From Pilasporangium apinafurcum (taxonomy: Eukaryota > Oomycota > Peronosporomycetes > Pythiales > Pythiaceae), in contig BCKE01000018.1 of assembly GCA_001600495.1 (NCBI GenBank), positions 143,444 to 185,483 of the forward strand: a stretch of DNA of 42,040 nucleotides. Reading direction: 5' to 3'. Below are positions 4,650 to 39,974 of the stretch, in pieces. Made by a program: the position numbers and the translations under genes. The notes below the pieces were generated by a model. It did not search any database, was not told where the DNA came from, and was given only the letters and a program-made list of their open reading frames with translations. Numbering within the stretch: position 1 is the stretch's first letter; each line of letters opens with the position of its first letter.

Positions 4650-7600
4650 CTAAAAGGACACAAATAATTTTCGTACCAGATGGCGAATCTCTTCCTCACA
4701 TTTACGCAAATGGCTGTCTTTTGATTCTAAGAGTAATCGTTGCTCAGCAGCACGGATTTCAAGCATAGCAATGTCGCTTTCCAGCTTTCGGTGCGCTTTC
4801 CGAAAATCATCCAGGTCTCGGTAAGCTGCCCGACGTTTTTCACGTTCATCTTCTAATGCATTCTGAGCGATTGTCGCAGCTTCATCGAAACGAGCAATCT
4901 GAAATGAAGAGAAGCATGCACGAATGATAAGTTGCTGTGGATCAAGTAAAGCTGCAGTATGTCATACCTTTCGCTCTAACTGGTCAATCACATCTTTTTT
5001 CTCCTGCAAACGTGACTGAATCGAAATATTGAGCGATTCCATACTGGAAAGCTCATCCCTCATGGAATCCATCTCTTTCTGCAGTTCATCTTTTTCATCA
5101 GTCAGTGCCTTGTGTGCCTTCGATAACAGGACCAGCTCTTTGTAAGTGTTTTCAGTCGCGATTGTTTTATCATTTAGCTCATCTTCCAGTTTCTATGAGC
5201 ACAACACAATGAGGTCAGGTATCACAGTATATATTTTAAACAAGACGACAGGTTCGTACCTTGGCAATATCTGAAACTCGTTCAAGCTCTTCTCGTTGAG
5301 CAGTGTACTCTCCCGACAGTGAAGCCATCCCTTCCCGTAAATCGTCCAATTCCTTCTCACGTATCTTCATTTCCTCTGCTGCTACCGAGTGTGACTGTGC
5401 AACTTCTTCCAATCGTATTTCTAGCACTTGGACCTTGTGCTTCAGTTCATTGTTCTCTTCTTCTAAAAGACCACGTTTGGCTCGGTTCTCTTGCAAAAGT
5501 TGGTCTCGTTGCTGTAATGCGTTGATTTTTTTATTCATATGCTGTCCCATGCTTTCACATTGAGTACTGAGCTCACGAAGTTTGGCCTCGTATAGATCTT
5601 TTGTTTTTAAAAAAGCTTCTTCTTTCTGTCGCATTTGGTCGACAAATTTATTGCGAAGTTCCTGAAATTCAAGATCCTGCTGTGCCTTCATGCTATCTTG
5701 CAAACGAAGACTTTGCTGTATTTCCGTCTGGAGCTTCTCGATAGTCCTTACATGCGCGTCAATACTAGCTTCCAGAGATGTAATTGTAGATTGCAGATTC
5801 TCGTTTGTTTCTCCCAGACGCTGTCCAAAACTTACGATGCCTTCAGCTAAGCTAAACGCTTGAAAGCGTTTATTTCCCGAATCCGACAAAAACTGATGCA
5901 ATAAAAGCAGGGTCTCTACAACCATTTCCTTGTCATTGCGATCAAAGAAACCCGCGCCAACGACCACAGATACCTCCGACGATTGAAGAAATTGGTTTAA
6001 CGTCCGTTTTGTCTTCTCATTCATGGCCGGTTCACCCATTAATCGGGAAAGAAGCATCTAAACAGTATCGAATTTCGAAGAGTTCAGTTTCACCAAAATA
6101 CCATTAGCGTATTCGTCACCAACTCACCACGAGATTAAAAGACAAACGTGGATAGAAGTGAAGAAACTGCTGCTGATCCATCGATCCAATTCGCGCAGAC
6201 TCGGCTTGTATTAGGGTCGCAATCTAGATTCACATATCACGTATGAATAACATGATCTACAAAGAAGCTTCTCGCCGCAATAATATATTAATTACCTGAT
6301 TGAAGTTGATGGTTTGAACGCAAACTTGACGAACAACGGGAAACTCGCTCAGCCTGGCGAGAAGATGACCCAATCCAACACTGTGCAGGTATTCTTCCGA
6401 GATACTTAGATCCTCAATAGTTTCTGTACTTTGAGTAACAATGGATGCTTCAGTGATACACCGAAAGAAACCTGTAATGATGGGATTCAGTCGATCCATA
6501 CGTGTCGAATTATCAAAAAGACGCTGTAGTGGACGGATATCATCGCCAACTACTTTCAGAAGCAGCTGAGTCGTCAATGTCGCCACGACCTTTGACGGGT
6601 GGAGCGCTACCTGCAGTACACGATAGAGCACGTCCTGATCTGCCAGCGCGTTGATTACCATTCTGCGAAAGTGATGACCGAGACCGATCACTGACCTTAG
6701 GAAGTGAATTGCAATCTCAATCTGATCGACGTTGCCATTCAAGTTTATGGTCATACTGGAAAACTCGATAGTAGGATCCATTTTAGGAAACTTCTCGAGC
6801 ATACTGAGAATTTCGGGGCGATCGGCGAGGTCGCAGAGCAAGTCCACACTCACTGTCTGCAACAGGTTCTTATGGTTCAGGATTGTCGAAAGCGAAGAGG
6901 TTTTTCTGACTTCGCCGGACGGTATCGTATCATGCCATGAGCAGTCCAGTACAGAGAAAATGAGATCCAACGTCTGTTCCACGTTCTTGGCACTGAACAG
7001 TTTGGCACCTAACGATTCGGTCAGTACGAGCCGCGCGAGGATCGTCATACTAAACACCAACAGCTCTGGGTCTTCTGTACTGTTGAGAAATATAGTTAGT
7101 GATCGATAAAACTCTTTAATTTTCTTCATCTCCTTTGTGTAGATCCGTACACCCGCATTGAGCTTGAGTAATTCAGCCATCACCACCAATTGCAACTTTA
7201 ATACTGTGTCATCGTCAGAACTCCCATGCACTGCTGACGTGACAATACTCGAAATGAGCCACTGTAGTAGCTTACCCATAGCATGTGAAGGGTACCCAAT
7301 CGCAGTGCTCTTGCACGACAGATAGACGAGCTCCAATAGTTGCTGTTGTTGGTCCGTAGTTGAACTAGGTGCAGCAGTCGAAGAAGTAATACTCAGTAGG
7401 TGTTCTGCAATTGTATCCAGCAGCTTCAGGACAAGCGATACATAGTGGGTGGAGAAGAGCATCGTCTCTAGTGACTGTTTCCTGTATAACTGGTACACGC
7501 GCGCGGCTGTGTCCATGGATGGATTCTGCACATACACCTCCACAGCCTTCGCGAGTGTAGATTTGGGTGATTTCTGCTGCGCAATCGTGCCATAGAGATT

Positions 7601-7771
7601 GGGTGTAGATGATATTGACACACGTGTAAGGTCTGTGGCCGTCGAGAGATCCATAGCAGCTGCAGAAGGTTGCCACCACGAACACGACGACGCTGGTCGA
7701 TTCTGGTTGCTCATTGTCATGATAATGGTTGTTTCGAGTTTGTTTTTCCTTTCTCCAGTTGGGTTTTTCAT
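4650..7771 (-). CDS. CIP2A-like armadillo/coiled-coil protein
   Basis: Five exons on the minus strand, 7771-6296, 6223-6128, 6057-5260, 5192-4968 and 4898-4650, all joined in phase 0, give 947 residues (human CIP2A has 905). The N-terminal 560 residues are helical armadillo-like; the remainder is a continuous coiled coil rich in E, K, Q and L. The block KIKEFYRSLTIFLNS...LLVFSMTILARLVLTESLG...KLFSAKNVEQTLDLIF and then SVDLLCDLADRPEI lines up closely with residues of human CIP2A that I recall. In animals CIP2A dimerises, inhibits PP2A-B56 and also acts in mitotic DNA-break tethering with TOPBP1; either role here is an extrapolation. The true start is uncertain: methionines at 7771, 7720 and 7714 are in frame. 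The gene is divergent to the GST gene, about 207 bp away. A generic coiled-coil vesicle tether is the alternative, but the shared N-terminal block argues against it. Confidence 0.78.
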
Positions 7772-15230: not shown

Positions 15231-17498
15231 TCATATCACCAATCCCCCTGTGCTATTAAACTCCACAGGAATATACTCCTTCCGTTTTGGGGCAGGTGCT
15301 CGTTTACGAGAACATCGCGCAGCTTCACCAAACACGACAGTGTCAATCACATTACGGCGGAAGCGATTCGCATAAAGCGCGGGGTTGATGCACGAAATCC
15401 CCGTACGATCGCGACACTGTAAATGTACGCGTATCCAATGCTCCATACTTTTTCGAATCGACCATGGCGTCAAGATATCAATGATCCCCATATTCACGAC
15501 AACAGCATCTTGGGCAAACACCTCCTGGCCAACACTGCCACCCAATGGTGTCGCCGCCTGGACGTAAGATGCTTCATCGTTACATGATTTGCTTTTGCTT
15601 ACCTCTAGACGCATCAACGTAGCGGTGCCTTGACTGCCTTCACTCGATGCGTAATTTGGCTTATGGCGACTTAACCCAATAATGAGACTGTAATCCATCG
15701 AATTAATTCGCTGGAGAAACTCGGTATCTGCGTAGAGCTGTTGTCCCAATTGAAGGGCGATATCTTGTGGCAAGCCCAGCTTTCGACAGGACCAGTTAAG
15801 GTCTTTTCCGACCATAAATTCTGCATGGCCCAAGCCAAGCTGTGGATTTTGCTCACAGACTTCCTTTGACATCCCAACAATGAAATCGTGACCACAAAAT
15901 TTACACACACGTCGCGTACCATTTCGTGCAAGCACATTATGACGCCCGACCCATGATCCTTTCAGGTCATAAAATTCATCAACATTCACGCTCGGATTAT
16001 TCAAGATGTTGGTCAATACGATGAAGAAGACCGAACTGCTCTCCATGACCAACTCATGGCAGCCAACATAGCGACAAAGGTAGCTGTTCGGATTGGCTTT
16101 TAAATGCTCCATATATTGCGGGAGGATGTGCAGCAAATACCGGTGTTCCGCGGGTGTACACGTCTTCAAAATAAATAACTGATCGCCTGTATAATAGAGA
16201 AAGGAACCACTCTTGCCCTCGCTAAACCGTTCATGTGTGCGTCCCATGAAAGAATGGATATAGCTTTCCTTGGTAATGCCTGATATCTTCCGAATTTCAT
16301 GGAACGCTTCCGGTTCGTAGTCTCGAAAGATGGCGGTTTGATCGGACGTGGCGTTCTTCAGCTCAAAGCAGCTCAGACTTGGCCGTTTCGCGTCCCATGG
16401 ATAAATGCCAGAGCGATTGGAGAGTGTGAAGATAGACATTGTCTGCACACCTACGTCGTCGTCCACTCGGTCCTTCGTCAGGAGCGCTGCCTTCTGGATG
16501 CCGTTCGTGGCGAAGTAAAGAATTTCGCGTCTCATCACCCAGCTGGCTTCATAGATTTTGAGGTAGTTATCCCAATTCCCCTGCTTCCATAACCTGTACG
16601 CGTTCGTGATACTTGTCGATCTCGCCCAGATCATTGCCATGAGTGCTCCTTTTGATGCCAACAATATCCGACCCGTAAATCGAAGCGCTTTATCTGCTGT
16701 TGAATTGACTTGAACGACTTGCTCATGTCGTAAGAAGTATGGAATACCCACAAGTCCCCAAAAAACGAAACGCCAGACGATGAAGCTTCGCATTGTATCG
16801 AGCGTTGTGCGTGCGTTGTTAAACCCTGTGAAGCTCAGGCGAATGCGTTTAGTTGCGACCACATAGAGGACAATACTGAGACAATATCCAGAGCAAACAG
16901 GCAGGAAAAACGTTTTCCATAATAATGACTCGCCTGTAGACCCTCGGAAGGTGTACCAGCAAAACCCATACGAGCTCATTCGTCCAACGCCAGTCTCGGT
17001 TGAGACGATCGCAGTAGTGCCACTGATCAACCACACAGCAACATGGTAGATGGGAAGGAGCCACCGAGAGAAGTGAAATGGATATCGAATCGTATAATAG
17101 AAGTGGAATGCCAATACGAAGAAGAAGAGTTCGTGCGATATCAACGCTAGCTGGATGATTGGTGCAGTCGAACATGGTGCACCGTACTCGGCGTATTTCT
17201 CAGCGATCACGACGCCGTGGAAAACGACACCCATCAATGAAACCCATGCCACGAGCATCGAGTGCTGTCTTAACGGTGGGATGATGGCGTACGTAGCGAT
17301 AATAAACAAACATCCGAGGAGCGAGACCAACGACATGGCCATCTTGACGCGTTCAACGTCTTCGAATTCTGGTTCGAGCGTCTTGAATTCGGTCTTGTTA
17401 GTGCTCTCAAGCATCCTGTGTAGAGTATCGAGAGGTTGTGTAATTATGTCTAGATCTACGAGCGGCGTCTGAGGAGACGACAGGGAGGAAGCGGTCAT
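15231..17498 (-). CDS. GPCR-phosphatidylinositol phosphate kinase fusion (GK family)
   Basis: An intronless 755-residue protein combining a seven-transmembrane receptor and a PIP kinase. The N-terminal 50 residues are presumably outside. Seven hydrophobic segments follow between about residues 53 and 300, starting AMSLVSLLGCLFIIATYAII and ending with FTGRILLASKGALMAMIW. A linker leads into the kinase domain from about 400: GKSGSFLYYTGDQLFILKT (nucleotide loop and lysine), FYDLKGSWVGR, MDYSLIIGLSRHK (catalytic DYSL) and MGIIDILTPWSIRKSMEHW (the IID metal-binding block). The fusion is known from Phytophthora and other oomycetes, and as RpkA in Dictyostelium. It would turn a receptor signal directly into PI(4,5)P2 synthesis at a membrane; the ligand is unknown. 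All kinase blocks are intact, so an active enzyme is expected. This gene is the best taxonomic marker in the window. Confidence 0.95.
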   Translation of the reverse strand: MTASSLSSPQTPLVDLDIITQPLDTLHRMLESTNKTEFKTLEPEFEDVERVKMAMSLVSLLGCLFIIATYAIIPPLRQHSMLVAWVSLMGVVFHGVVIAEKYAEYGAPCSTAPIIQLALISHELFFFVLAFHFYYTIRYPFHFSRWLLPIYHVAVWLISGTTAIVSTETGVGRMSSYGFCWYTFRGSTGESLLWKTFFLPVCSGYCLSIVLYVVATKRIRLSFTGFNNARTTLDTMRSFIVWRFVFWGLVGIPYFLRHEQVVQVNSTADKALRFTGRILLASKGALMAMIWARSTSITNAYRLWKQGNWDNYLKIYEASWVMRREILYFATNGIQKAALLTKDRVDDDVGVQTMSIFTLSNRSGIYPWDAKRPSLSCFELKNATSDQTAIFRDYEPEAFHEIRKISGITKESYIHSFMGRTHERFSEGKSGSFLYYTGDQLFILKTCTPAEHRYLLHILPQYMEHLKANPNSYLCRYVGCHELVMESSSVFFIVLTNILNNPSVNVDEFYDLKGSWVGRHNVLARNGTRRVCKFCGHDFIVGMSKEVCEQNPQLGLGHAEFMVGKDLNWSCRKLGLPQDIALQLGQQLYADTEFLQRINSMDYSLIIGLSRHKPNYASSEGSQGTATLMRLEVSKSKSCNDEASYVQAATPLGGSVGQEVFAQDAVVVNMGIIDILTPWSIRKSMEHWIRVHLQCRDRTGISCINPALYANRFRRNVIDTVVFGEAARCSRKRAPAPKRKEYIPVEFNSTGGLVI

Positions 17499-33100: not shown

Positions 33101-36100
33101 ATGTATGTACAAATGCCAAGACGCACTCGAATGTGCTATCACTACCACATTCGTTTGTATGTGTTACTACTGTTGTCGTTCGCGGCGACCTGCGCAGGAG
33201 TTGTTACGATTGGTTTTCATTCTTCGTTCACAAATGCAGCCAATCCGTTTGCAGTGACAGAGTGTGACGCAGCATGCACGTCTCCAGGATCGGTTACGTT
33301 ATTGTTGAAAGTAGCGCGCTCAGGCACAGACCTCTCATCGACTGACACGGTGTATGTTACGACGCGGCCAGCGCAGACTCCAGGTGTAACCACGGCGACA
33401 GCAAATGATGATTACACACCATTGACGAATATCTCAGTCAAATTTTCACCTTCAGAGACCATCCATACTGTACCAGTGACTATCATTTCGGACGGGGTCT
33501 ATGAAGAAGATGAACAATTTGAAGCATATATCGACAATCCAAGTGCGGGAGTGATCTTAGGAGCAACAACGGCGTACATTAACATTCAAGACGGTGGGGA
33601 TGGTGAGTCCGCGTTCTACCACCCTCTTCCACTTCTTTCGGGTGCTGCTGCGTCCGAGATCTTGGCTGATAATGTCAATCGTTGATGTAGCTGGAATCTT
33701 CTCATTCAGTTCTAGCAGATTTGAATTTAAAGAGAATGCCGGAAACGTACAAGTGGGCATTACCCGGAAGGGTGGAGCGAGCAGGAGCATTACCGTGAAA
33801 TATCGACTATCCAATCCAACTCAAGCCACTGCAGTTAAAAATAAAAATTTTATGCTGCTAGATTCTGTTTACGAAGTGCAATTTGCCGAGTATCAGCGAG
33901 ATGGAGTTATCAACATCCAAATTATCAACGATGATGTCTACGAAGCAAATGAGTTTTTCTATATAGAAATTGCTGCGCTGAGCCCAACAAAATTGAGTGA
34001 TCCCACGACCAGCATCGCCAAATTTGGGTCTCCTCGTAGTACGGTAGTGTTTATCGTTGATGATGGCGATGCTGGCCAGTTTGATTTTGCATCTCCATTT
34101 ATACTATGCCGTGAAGACAACGGTACAGCAGTCGTAACTATTAAGCGTAGCAAGGGATCATCTTCCTCTTCCTACATACCGGTTTATCTTACAGTAGCGA
34201 CAGTGGGCTCCTCTGGTGGTAGCAATGCAACTGAAGGCGGCAGTCTAGCATATGACTACTTGGCAAAAACGGAGAAACTAAACTGGGCGAATGGCGAAGT
34301 GAAGAAATCGTTTGCTGTCAAAATATTCAACAACAATCGATATGATTCACAAACACGATCAATCAAGCTTCGAATGACAAGCGTTGAGGGTGGTGCCTCA
34401 ACTGGTCCGCAAAACGAAATGTGGGTATATATTATTGACGATCGGGATGCTGGGACTCTGTCTTTTCAATTACCACACTACGAGGTCGCCGAAAATGGAG
34501 ATAGTGTGACTGTTGACGTTATCCGTACAGGAGTATCGGATTCAACGAACATCAATACCTATGCTAGTGGTGTCGTAACTGTTGATGTCGCAACCTATAG
34601 TGGCATTATCTATCCCGGAAAGGATCGTTATGATTTGGCGTATGATTATGGTGTGATTAAAGAGCGAGGATGCACACATGTCAGCCCATGCACAGCTGTT
34701 GAAGATGTTGCTTATACACCATTGCAATCTACGACGTTAACGTTTGGTGCTGGTGAAACTAGAAAGACGGTCACGATTTCTATACTCAACAATGATCTAT
34801 ATGAAGCACCAAGCAGATCGTTTAAACTTATTTTACAGAACGTCACTGGAGGCGCTCATCTTGGTATCGATTACGAGCACCCAATGGAGTGGTACGGATA
34901 CAACACAGTCTTCTTGGCGTTGGAAAAACGTAAAAGTGAGCTTCCGGACAATGTCGGTACAATCGTGTCGATTATAGACGATGGGGATCCAGCAGTGATT
35001 GTGTCGAAAGCAAGCGTCTCCATTTCTGAAATTGGACAAGTAGATTCGTTTAGAATTCACCTCAATTCGCAGCCTTTGTCAGATGTTGGCATTGTCCTAA
35101 GTGTTGACTCCAGTGTACTACAAGTAACACCTAGTAGTCTCAAATTTGCGACGTTTAATTGGAATACGGACCAGTGGGTGCAAGTCAGCCCCATTCCAAA
35201 CAACATAACAACTGGTATTCAGCGAACCGATATCACTATAACTTGCTCGAGCAGTGACGCTGCATACTCTTCGTCATTACGTGTGAATGTTAGCGATTCA
35301 GGAACTGTTTTAGCTGCGAAAGTTTATACCCAGAAATGGGGAGAGTATTACACTGGCAATCTGTTGCATGCTTTTCCTTGGTTGGAAGAAGAAGGTGTAT
35401 TGACAGCACCCTTTGATAGAAGTTCGATAACCGCATTCATCCTAGATGATGATCACGCCAGTGTATCGATATATCCAGAAGATATACGTCATACATCAAG
35501 CAGAAATGGTGGCAGCACTCCAGACAATTTTGTTTGTGTTCGAAAAAATGGCCATAACGCATCTGTGCGTATCTCCCTAACCAGCGAGCCTACCACGGAT
35601 GTATTTCTCAGCTTCTTACCAGAATTGCTGTCAGGAATTGCTATCGAGCCTGCTTCTATTGATATCTCGTCATCTGAATGGGATAAAATGTATTCTGCTA
35701 TTATTTATGTATCGAGCAGCTTGGACACAAACGATACCGATGAAATTCACTTTTCCAAGATCTCTGTTTATACGCGTAGTAGTGGTGATTCCTATTATAA
35801 TAGTGCGGATAGTCCTGTTGGATATATCAACGTGATGAAGTTTCCACCAGCGTTGGCACTCCTAAACTCGTCTTTGCTAGAAATTCGTGAAAACGATGCA
35901 AGTCACCCTCTTGCTAGCTATGACATTCGATTAGGAAGTCAACCCAATTATTGGGAGCCGGCTGGTGGTAACTACGTCCCAGTACAGATAAAACTGAGCG
36001 CAGATGCGGATACCAGCCTTACTTCCTCGTCTCCATCATTAACATATTTCGGTTCAAGTCCGACTCTTGTCGTTGCGAGTAACTCATCCAAGAGCACCGA

Positions 36101-39100
36101 AGGTAATATCATACCAAGTATTGGAGTAATTCGGTTTAAAATTCATCCCTCCATCGAATCTAATACTGGTAGTATCCAGGTCGGTTTAGCTCGCTTGCGA
36201 GTATTTCGAGTCTCTGGTGGGGAGAACGGCGGACTTGGGGGTATAAAACTAGGAGTCACTACTGCTCAGGGGATATCATCTGACAACTGGGACGAGAATT
36301 TGCTTCATGTAGATTGCAGCTCAGCAAGTATTGCCGACGAATGCTCCTTGATCAATGGAACCGCAACCTACTCGTCATTTTTCCCTGATACTTCGACATT
36401 TGAGAATATAAGCAATTTTAGTGATGGCGAAGTTCTCATCCATCCGTCTACAGAAGTCAATACTGAGACCAATGCATTTGCACCTTCTTCAGGATGGCTT
36501 GAAATCGACGTCACGACTGCTCTCAATAGAGTTCTAGCCCAGCTTCAGAACCCCAGTTCGAAGTTTTGCACAATTACTTTTCTGTTATACTCAAAATCGA
36601 TTGCCACATTCACGTATGATGGCGTTGATGAAGTAATATTAGCCTCAAAAGAGTATCCAGATGCATCTTTGCATCCCGAGATACTCGTGACTGCGTCTGG
36701 AAGAGTGAATTTGGCACTATCGGCTGTAGCACGTCAGAGCCATCCAGGCAATGCAGTAGCAGCGATAGATGGCAAACAGTCATCGAGAATCGCAGTTGCA
36801 ACCACGTACGCAATGTCAACGGTACCATACAAATATCCGTGGTGGCAAGCAGATTTAACCAAGATTCGGTTGATCGAAGACATCATCATCACTATCAAAC
36901 GGAAAGCACTAGCTGCATCATTAGATGAAGCTAAGTTACCAGTGTCGTTATGGGTATTTCTGTCACAGTCATCACTTGCGACCAGTAACAACGGATTGAC
37001 AGGATTTTTGAATGCGAAGAGCAATGCGCTATTCTCGAAACAGTTCAATGTTACTACTAGATCGTTCGACGCATCCGATACAGACACAATTGTATTACGC
37101 TGGGATGTCAATGGGGAAGAGGGGTACTTTGGAGAGAACGAGTTCATTGCCAATTACTCGGTGCTAGTAGAAGCACGTTACCTTCTGATCCAAGTTGAAG
37201 AGGAAAACAACATCATTTTGAACGAGGTTGAAATATACCAACAGGCGTTTACGAGTGCTCATGTATCGGTGGGAGGGTTTATGCCCTCATCATCAGTACT
37301 TAGTGCTGGTCAGAATCAAATTCAATTGATATCGCCAGCATTTGGCGACGTATACGGTACCAACTGTAACGACACAACAAGGATATGCCGCCGCGAATTG
37401 TTATTTACGTCCGGAAATTGGAACAAAGTACAAACCATTCGGGTGAAGGTTATTGATGATGATGTAGCCATGGGCGATCGCGAAATACTGCTAACCCACC
37501 GACTGGAGAGTCTAGACGCAGATTTCTCTGGAAGTTCTCTTTGTGACAGCACTTCGAGTTCATCATGCAATTTAAACGTCTTCAACGAAAGTAGCATCAA
37601 GCCACTGCTTGTTCGAGAAGACGATGTAAATCAAGTTCTGCTCTCCAAATCCCGTCTTGAAGTAGTGGAAGGGAGTAATATTTTCCCAAACGCACCTGTC
37701 ATCCGTCGTGAAAAGACTATTCGGCCAAATCTCTTTCGATGCAGTTCAGATCCAGATAATGTTATTGATATCGATAGAGGTGAAAGCACTGCATGCGTCA
37801 ATTCATTTGTTGCTTCTAGTGCAACGGCGTGGAAGCCATGTATTTCAAATATTGATGCTCTACCACTCGAAACAGGGAGCACATGGGTGATGGCAGGATT
37901 TGACGACAAGAAAAATCTTTCTAGTATTACGCTGACAGTACCGTCAATGAGTGGGGCCAACTATATCCGCCGAATGAGCGTCTGGTTGAATCCATCCATG
38001 TCTATCACTGAGTCAAGTGCTGATCTCCTACAACTAGCAGCAAATTGGGTTCAGATTAAGGCGTTTGACATTGCAATGGAGTCAAGTGGAACCCAAACAC
38101 TTGTAGTAAACGGATTCACTCTATTCCCAGTACAAACCATTTTAATTGCGTTCGAGGAATCCTATGACGACGATCGCCACTGTATTGTTGCTCCTCGCGT
38201 TGTGATTACTGCGTATGAGCCCGTCATATTTCCTATTTCAATTCGAGGCGATCTTCGGGACCCTGAGAGTATTTCTCCCAATGCAAGTCGGCTTTCGAGA
38301 ATGCATTTATTCGGCGTGAGCGATACGCTGCAGATTCAACTCTCAAGCGAACCGATTGCCGATACTTTGATTTCAATCTTATCGAATGAAGCAAATGCCA
38401 ATATATCCGTGTTTGATCCCACTAATAACTCTGCTGGATTGGCGTCGCTTCAAGTACTCACTGGAGCTGCGTATGAGAATGGAGATATTTGGACATTTTG
38501 CATGCCAACGGTTCTCACGTTCACAGCAACGAACTGGAATATTTCCCAGCAGTTTACCTTTGTAGTTGTGGACGACAATACTTTTCAAGGAAATCGAAGT
38601 TTTGCGATCACTCACATTTCACAATCAAATGACTCAGAAATCGCCATAATCGCGAATCAGACGTTTGATGGTACAAGTCTTTCCTATTCATTCACCACTG
38701 TGCCAACAGCTCTTTCGTATTCTTCTGCCAAATTCGTCGTGAGTGATGGCCGTGAGGATATATGGCCCTACAGGCTACGGACAACATGGGTATCAGACAG
38801 CGGAAACGTCCAAGTAAATGCAATCGATGATGATCTACCAGGAGTCACCCTCTCTGCTAGTCAAATTGTTGTCTCAGAGAGTGGACCTAGTGGGAACTAT
38901 TCTGTCTGTCTTGATTCGGCTCCTTCAAAGAATGTTGTGATAGACATCACGTATGAACGTGTTGACGATTTGCTAACAGTAGATCCATTACAGTTGACCT
39001 TCACGTGCGAGAACTGGTATGAACCGCAATATGTTGTTATTTATCCAGTGGCGAACGATGTTTACGATGCGGGCGCTCCATTCACTCTATCGTACAGCAA

Positions 39101-39974
39101 GAACATTGCAAAGGCAAAACAACCTCTTCTTAAGCATCATGTGACAAGTGATGATCCTTTCTACGATTCCATTCCTGTGGGTGGAAATGAGCATGATCAA
39201 TCGATGCTGTACGTTACCAATCAAGGTGTACAGGCGATTGTTGAAGATGATGATACTGGATGTGTGGCAGAGTATGCTTGCGAAAATGGAGGCGAGTGTA
39301 TGTCTGAAGACATTGGGAATGTATGCAAATGTCCGACAACATTCGGTATGAAAAACTGTTCAGCCACCTGTGTAAATTCTCGGGACTGCATGTTTGACCG
39401 TTTGGCTTTTCAGCTCCAATGCCACATAGGACAGTCAAACGCAATCTGCAGTTCAACCTTTTCTGCGGGTTTATTAGTGTCGACTCTATACCAACTGCTC
39501 ACTACGGCAGAACTGGCTGTTGATGGGAAAATCTACCCCAAGCTGAGCCTGGCATCGCTTGCTGATGTGATGTATGTTGTCAACCAAACAAGTGCAGAAT
39601 GCGTAGATGGTACAGGGAATTGTGTGGTTGTTCGAGTGGATTTCTTGAGATCTACAGAAGGTGACACTTCTGTTGTGGACAAAATGATAGCGTATGCGAA
39701 GGCGGGTTCACTGAAGACAACCCCATTATATGTCGAGTTGGTGGTTGCTGAGCCTCAGTATCCAGCAGATATGAGTGTCACGATCGTCGTGTGGGTCTTT
39801 GTCGGGGTCTGCGGGATGTGTACGATTGCAGGCGGTATTTTCTTTAGTGCGCGCGCTATAAAGGTCAAGCGGAGCCAAGTAATACCACGGCAAGAAGGAG
39901 ACACCAGACCAACTAATACGGAACAACTCGCTATCCAGGATGCAATCGTGCGTACCTCTCCTATCTCTACGTGA
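33101..39974 (+). CDS. Giant Calx-beta domain transmembrane protein
   Basis: Two exons, 33101-33602 and 33691-39974, give 2261 residues. A hydrophobic segment at about 20-33 (VLLLLSFAATCAG) is a signal peptide or anchor; methionines 1, 5 and 11 are possible starts. The outer part is built from repeated Calx-beta-like units, each with an acidic DD(G/D)-type loop and the sequence type F..GE..KTV.I.I.NDD.YE (for example NNDLYEAPSRSFKLIL). Around 930-1160 lies a DNRLRE/CBM-like segment, and around 1170-1330 a discoidin-type (F5/8C) unit with AIDGKQSS and WWQADLTKIRLIEDI. One EGF-like unit sits near 2023-2060 (CENGGECMSEDIGNVCKC). A single membrane helix, about 2197-2219 (VVWVFVGVCGMCTIAGGIFF), leads to a 40-residue tail. 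Cysteine-poor, N-glycosylation-rich sequence suits an adhesin or wall-contacting surface protein; ligands are unknown. Confidence 0.88.

Follow-up and report, generated by a model that had tools for sequence, protein, structure and literature searches.

A likely CIP2A orthologue in the oomycete Pilasporangium apinafurcum

The locus described here raises the question of whether CIP2A, a protein treated as a human oncoprotein in those parts of the literature that were examined, has a counterpart outside of the animals and, if so, what such a protein would do there. A preliminary description of the 42,040-nucleotide stretch of P. apinafurcum DNA analyzed in this study (hereafter, the window) had proposed exactly such an orthologue and placed its emphasis upon PP2A inhibition. 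A literature search, confined largely to open-access and partially accessible sources, turned up no description of CIP2A outside of animals; such proteins probably carry a label in public databases already, by way of the Pfam family PF21044. Judged by sequence comparison, the window does encode a CIP2A family member in an unexpected, non-animal lineage, and the relatives of its human partners that can be recognized elsewhere in the same genome suggest a possible role for it.

The CIP2A-like gene occupies window positions 7771-4650 on the minus strand, precisely where the preliminary description had placed it, with its ATG at 7771 and its stop codon at 4650-4652. Treating the locus as a single ORF was abandoned, since the frame is broken by four introns; the open frame starting from the ATG at 7771 runs to 6257, which is past the end of the first exon. 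When the five exons are joined, they yield a single frame of 948 codons including the stop, encoding a protein of 947 aa. The four introns are 72, 70, 67, and 69 bp in length and all are of the GT...AG type. The start codon was taken as the first in-frame ATG, while the ATGs at aa 18 and aa 20 are alternative candidate starts. Exon 1 (7771-6296, aa 1-492), which is supported by its open frame, the donor GTAATT, and the helical repeats found in structure models, encodes a segment without predicted structure from aa 1 to approximately aa 56 and then most of a helical solenoid. Exon 2 (6223-6128) is supported by its GT-AG introns and by the maintained reading frame, exon 3 (6057-5260) encodes the probable end of the solenoid and the start of a coiled coil, and the coiled coil continues through exon 4 (5192-4968) and through exon 5 (4898-4650) up to the stop codon. 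This apparent coiled coil, as judged by a simple heptad and composition score in place of a trained coiled-coil predictor, extends over approximately aa 600-947 (genomic span 4653..5832 on the minus strand, exons 3-5), is free of proline, and has an EKQRDN content of 36-68% across 23 protein windows from aa 603, with at least 43% in 20 of the 23. The domain order and length given in the preliminary description are both borne out, as a solenoid is followed by coil-like composition and the 947 aa of the oomycete protein compare with the 905 aa listed for human CIP2A in the available text of PMC9288427.

The gene is found in the company of raptor, a PIP5K-domain protein, La, NAD synthase, and a P-type cation ATPase. 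The PIP5K gene is a single open frame (window 15231-17498, minus strand) in which a PIP5K domain scoring 217 bits follows what appears by eye to be a seven-span membrane region, and it reads as an RpkA-type GPCR-PIP kinase fusion; such receptor-PIP-kinase proteins are attributed to the Dictyostelidae and Phytophthora in the accessible portion of PMC3206951. Introns of some 70 bp and a genome of 36.5 Mb are likewise in keeping with an oomycete host. A 2124-aa open frame on the plus strand (window 33600-39974) encodes Calx-beta domains (112.8 bits) and, as recognized by eye, a stretch of EGF-like cysteines; its C-terminal segment is hydrophobic. An ORF at 33101-33685, which may be its first exon, overlaps this frame.

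The principal evidence for the identity of the CIP2A-like gene comes from profile and sequence searches. A search with the CIP2A family profile, which the preliminary description had proposed as a check, placed the protein above the curated cut-off of CIP2A_N (PF21044), with 51.2 bits vs 26.3 and an E value of 1e-13. The query for this search, as well as for the PDB search, was the 504-aa open frame of exon 1, the last 12 residues of which derive from intron 1; with the spliced protein, the CIP2A_N score is 46.3 bits. The matched segment (aa 133-275, window 6947..7375, minus strand) covers 136 of the 544 profile positions, namely 89-224, and overlaps the match to human CIP2A. Using the same 504-aa query, human CIP2A (5UFL) was the sole PDB sequence retrieved at E <= 1, with an E value of 2.9e-12 over human residues 102-243 (aa 127-275). 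The two proteins agree at 47 of the 141 aligned positions; in the best conserved core (aa 195-275, window 6947..7189, minus strand), 31 of 80 aligned residues (39%) are shared with the human protein. The earlier statement that an N-terminal block (aa 217-272) matches human CIP2A closely was correct insofar as the similarity lies well above chance, but at an overall identity of 33% the word "closely" is too strong. In the reverse direction, a search of the 36.5-Mb genome with the human CIP2A segment returned one locus at E <= 10, the CIP2A-like gene (E 1.9e-13), and the CIP2A_N profile likewise yielded a single match at E <= 0.1 over the whole genome, which was again this gene. Such results indicate with near certainty that the window gene is homologous to CIP2A, and as a reciprocal best match within one genome, it is likely to be the CIP2A orthologue.

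The resemblance to human CIP2A (5UFL, PF21044) comprises an N-terminal helical solenoid followed by a long C-terminal coiled coil, a length of approximately 900 aa, and the reciprocal best match. In contrast, the window protein offers no recognizable sequence counterpart of the human head (aa 1-85), nor of the latter half of the solenoid. When aa 1-132 and aa 277-504 were searched separately, neither returned a CIP2A match, and the rest of the solenoid outside of the matched segment is without CIP2A sequence similarity. This also applies to the C-terminal part of the armadillo domain, by which human CIP2A forms its homodimer. Confirmed relatives of the protein numbered zero among the 33 pattern stretches from a viral contig collection and zero among the 143 from a bacterial and archaeal collection, which is expected, since these collections comprise viruses, bacteria, and archaea. 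CIP2A_N was similarly found in 0 of 14 control genomes, the 12 named of which are bacteria and archaea, so this count is uninformative with regard to eukaryotes.

USO1/p115 (PF04869) also combines an armadillo-type head with a long coiled coil, a likeness that it shares with the window protein, and the preliminary description had envisaged that a reciprocal search might return this or another armadillo tether as the best match. CIP2A was returned instead; p115 is encoded elsewhere in the genome, and the human CIP2A segment retrieves only the window gene. The p115 gene of this organism, a separate gene on contig C44, matches Uso1_p115_head at 64.4 bits with no CIP2A_N match listed, and Uso1_p115_head is not listed among the Pfam matches of the window protein, a difference on which, together with the separate p115 gene, a USO1/p115 identity was rejected. 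With the spliced protein and a limit of E 10 (the HMMER filters drop most matches above approximately 0.1), Pfam listed no Uso1, ARM, or HEAT family. For the 504-aa query, the Pfam listing contains one solenoid profile besides CIP2A_N, a HEAT model of the GCN1 type, at E 0.12 and 12.8 bits vs a cut-off of 27. A 605-aa solenoid query against the PDB, extended up to E 10, recovered only CIP2A and two avidin chance matches.

Single-sequence structure models of the window protein are weak, with mean pLDDT values of 50.7 for a 504-aa model and 69.3 for a 246-aa model. Helices arranged as helical repeats span aa 57 to 501 in the weak 504-aa model. For both weak models, ARM/HEAT proteins and further alpha-solenoids head the VIA-align matches listed, while the Foldseek matches listed for the weak 246-aa model are led by designed helical repeats, none of them at E <= 0.001. 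Human CIP2A (5UFL) is not among the best 50 matches of any of the three fold listings (two from VIA-align and one from Foldseek), and since the models are weak, this absence was not counted against CIP2A. The helical repeats, as modelled, do not single out CIP2A. The armadillo domain of HSF2BP/MEILB2 (7bdx), a DNA-repair armadillo protein, is absent from the sequence searches and has a fold score within 1 Z of most of the best 50; due to this tie with most of the matches listed, we claim no relationship to HSF2BP/MEILB2.

If the gene is indeed a CIP2A orthologue, one may ask which of the human activities it would share. According to the available text of PMC9288427, CIP2A binds human TOPBP1 between BRCT5 and BRCT6, where yeast two-hybrid assays locate the site at residues 830-852 and deletion analysis at 774-798 plus 813-892, and the TOPBP1 region between BRCT5 and BRCT6 pulls down the purified armadillo domain of human CIP2A. 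This pull-down of a purified domain implies that the human TOPBP1-CIP2A interaction is direct. As the conserved part of the window gene falls within the armadillo domain, TOPBP1 was sought in the genome, which contains 16 BRCT matches. A TOPBP1 relative of 997 aa is predicted at C47:78500-88400 (L029), its exons joined across inferred borders. With the exons joined, its C-terminal BRCT pair matches TOPBP1 (3al2) at E 1.4e-21 and SLF1, a protein with the same type of domain, at 9e-21; we take 3al2, 3uen, and 8ok2 to be TOPBP1 BRCT7/8, BRCT4/5, and BRCT3-5, respectively. Its N-terminal BRCTs match TOPBP1 at E 1.6e-4 through 6hm5, which represents BRCT0-1-2 according to the accessible text of PMC12661054. 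For the middle BRCTs, XRCC1 is a better match (0.0023) than TOPBP1 (0.13), and they are consequently not diagnostic. The C47 gene was first read as PTIP/Rtt107-type, as it carries BRCTs at either end and one of its exons matches Rtt107_BRCT_5 at 27.0 bits, a reading that was discarded when the joined exons matched the TOPBP1 C-terminal pair. Its last exon alone scores 12.4 bits with BRCT_TopB1_SLF1 vs a cut-off of 27.

The two BRCT groups of the C47 protein are separated by a linker of 283 residues, in which the tripeptide FDV occurs once, at aa 577, approximately 84 residues past the last N-terminal BRCT (context: RFDVDEMLTELD). Adam et al. 2021 are said to have found F837, D838, and V839 of human TOPBP1 to be necessary for CIP2A binding. 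The FDV of the oomycete linker would sit about where human TOPBP1 binds CIP2A, and we regard it as a lead as opposed to a pre-planned test, as the motif was noticed after the fact; FDV is present in 1.9% of shuffles of the linker. A second gene of TOPBP1/Dpb11 type (E 7.6e-10) is found at C56:80500-90400 (L028), and since its frame stops after the last BRCT, it is without a comparable linker. Judging from these matches, the TOPBP1 family seems to be divided between the C47 and C56 genes. A further BRCT-containing open frame at C69:110697-113909 (L014) encodes, by eye, three BRCTs, then a putative SWIM zinc finger, and lastly a putative ATP-dependent DNA ligase domain.

Relatives of the upstream components are likewise evident. 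At two places on contig C63 (L040 and L041), opposed and approximately 0.6 kb apart, an H2A ends in SQDY, which is an H2AX-type tail; 15 loci were read, and two further pattern matches (L032 and L037) read as other frames with no H2A. The tandem BRCT of a protein encoded on contig C22 is closest to PTIP (7.9e-13), followed by Mdb1 (8.5e-8) and MDC1 (1.8e-7), and the tandem-BRCT group to which these proteins belong reads phosphorylated H2A. At C22:13691-20051 (L017 and L026), there are two adjoining genes with tandem BRCTs that are similar by eye, the first of which is the one closest to PTIP, Mdb1, and MDC1, and the pair look like a local duplication. Each link in the tether of human mitosis (H2AX, reader, TOPBP1, and CIP2A) has, by homology, a relative in this one genome, and we infer that these relatives may form one pathway in this organism.

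Taking all of this together, the explanation to which we incline, with slightly better than even confidence, is that this gene specifies an orthologue of CIP2A which, bound to TOPBP1, serves as a scaffold at sites of chromosome breakage. The protein would consist of an N-terminal armadillo-type solenoid and then a coiled coil of approximately 350 residues. Its solenoid would bind a short FDV-containing segment of the TOPBP1 linker that separates the N-terminal BRCTs from the C-terminal BRCT pair, and its dimerization together with the coiled coil would create a bivalent scaffold. Presumably, the CIP2A-TOPBP1 pair would then keep chromosome ends that are broken or under-replicated tethered to one another during mitosis, as in human cells. 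For the tether mechanism and its predicted TOPBP1 binding taken by themselves, we consider the chances to be about evenly balanced. Inhibition of PP2A-B56 through the head would be an animal addition, or else the head is too diverged to be seen.

The cancer literature would instead predict an orthologue that mainly binds PP2A-B56 and blocks its substrate groove, and both the CIP2A homology and the several B56 loci in this genome (14 matched stretches on 5 contigs) are consistent with such a role. In the available text of PMC9974998, human CIP2A binds PP2A-B56 via its N-terminal head, as seen from mutations in the first 40 residues and from the binding of fragment 1-85, and conservation of this head is noted across animals, from humans to lancelet. 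The oomycete alignment starts at human residue 102, which puts the conserved block downstream of the human B56-binding head, and aa 1-132 matched no Pfam family at E <= 1, a search in which a short diverged head could escape detection. The earlier emphasis upon PP2A inhibition consequently finds no support, as the B56-binding head is without a detectable counterpart; PP2A inhibition by the window protein is unsupported by its sequence, and we regard B56 binding as its main role as decidedly improbable. Somewhat less improbable, yet still unlikely in our view, is that the protein shares ancestry with CIP2A while performing a different job, such as membrane or cytoskeletal tethering. A solenoid plus a coil is a common architecture and many such proteins are tethers, the recognizable match is limited to 142 human residues, the fold matches listed are general solenoid and helical-repeat proteins, and the GCN1-type HEAT profile appears, albeit below its cut-off. 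Against this, no other solenoid or tether family is significant in the Pfam or PDB searches, and p115 is a separate gene.

The age of CIP2A is a further matter, as a pre-animal origin requires that horizontal transfer be excluded. Acquisition of the gene from an animal would be compatible with its presence in one non-animal genome alone, and CIP2A then need not predate animals. We consider this very unlikely in light of the low identity (33%), the four introns of 67-72 bp, and a coding G+C content (45.3%) that equals that of the window (45.4%); furthermore, the TOPBP1 relative and its linker motif would need a separate explanation. Returning to the TOPBP1-bound scaffold, a more far-reaching proposal, which we advance only tentatively and with somewhat less than even confidence, is that the chain of gamma-H2AX, tandem-BRCT reader, TOPBP1, and CIP2A is older than animals and already existed in the ancestor that they share with stramenopiles. 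TOPBP1 binding would then be ancestral and the PP2A-B56 head a later addition in the animal lineage. A non-animal orthologue that shares its genome with a relative of TOPBP1 and an H2A tail of the H2AX kind would allow one to ask which function of CIP2A came first, the tethering of chromosome breaks or the inhibition of PP2A, and such a distant CIP2A sequence may also help in recognizing which surface of a drug target is essential.
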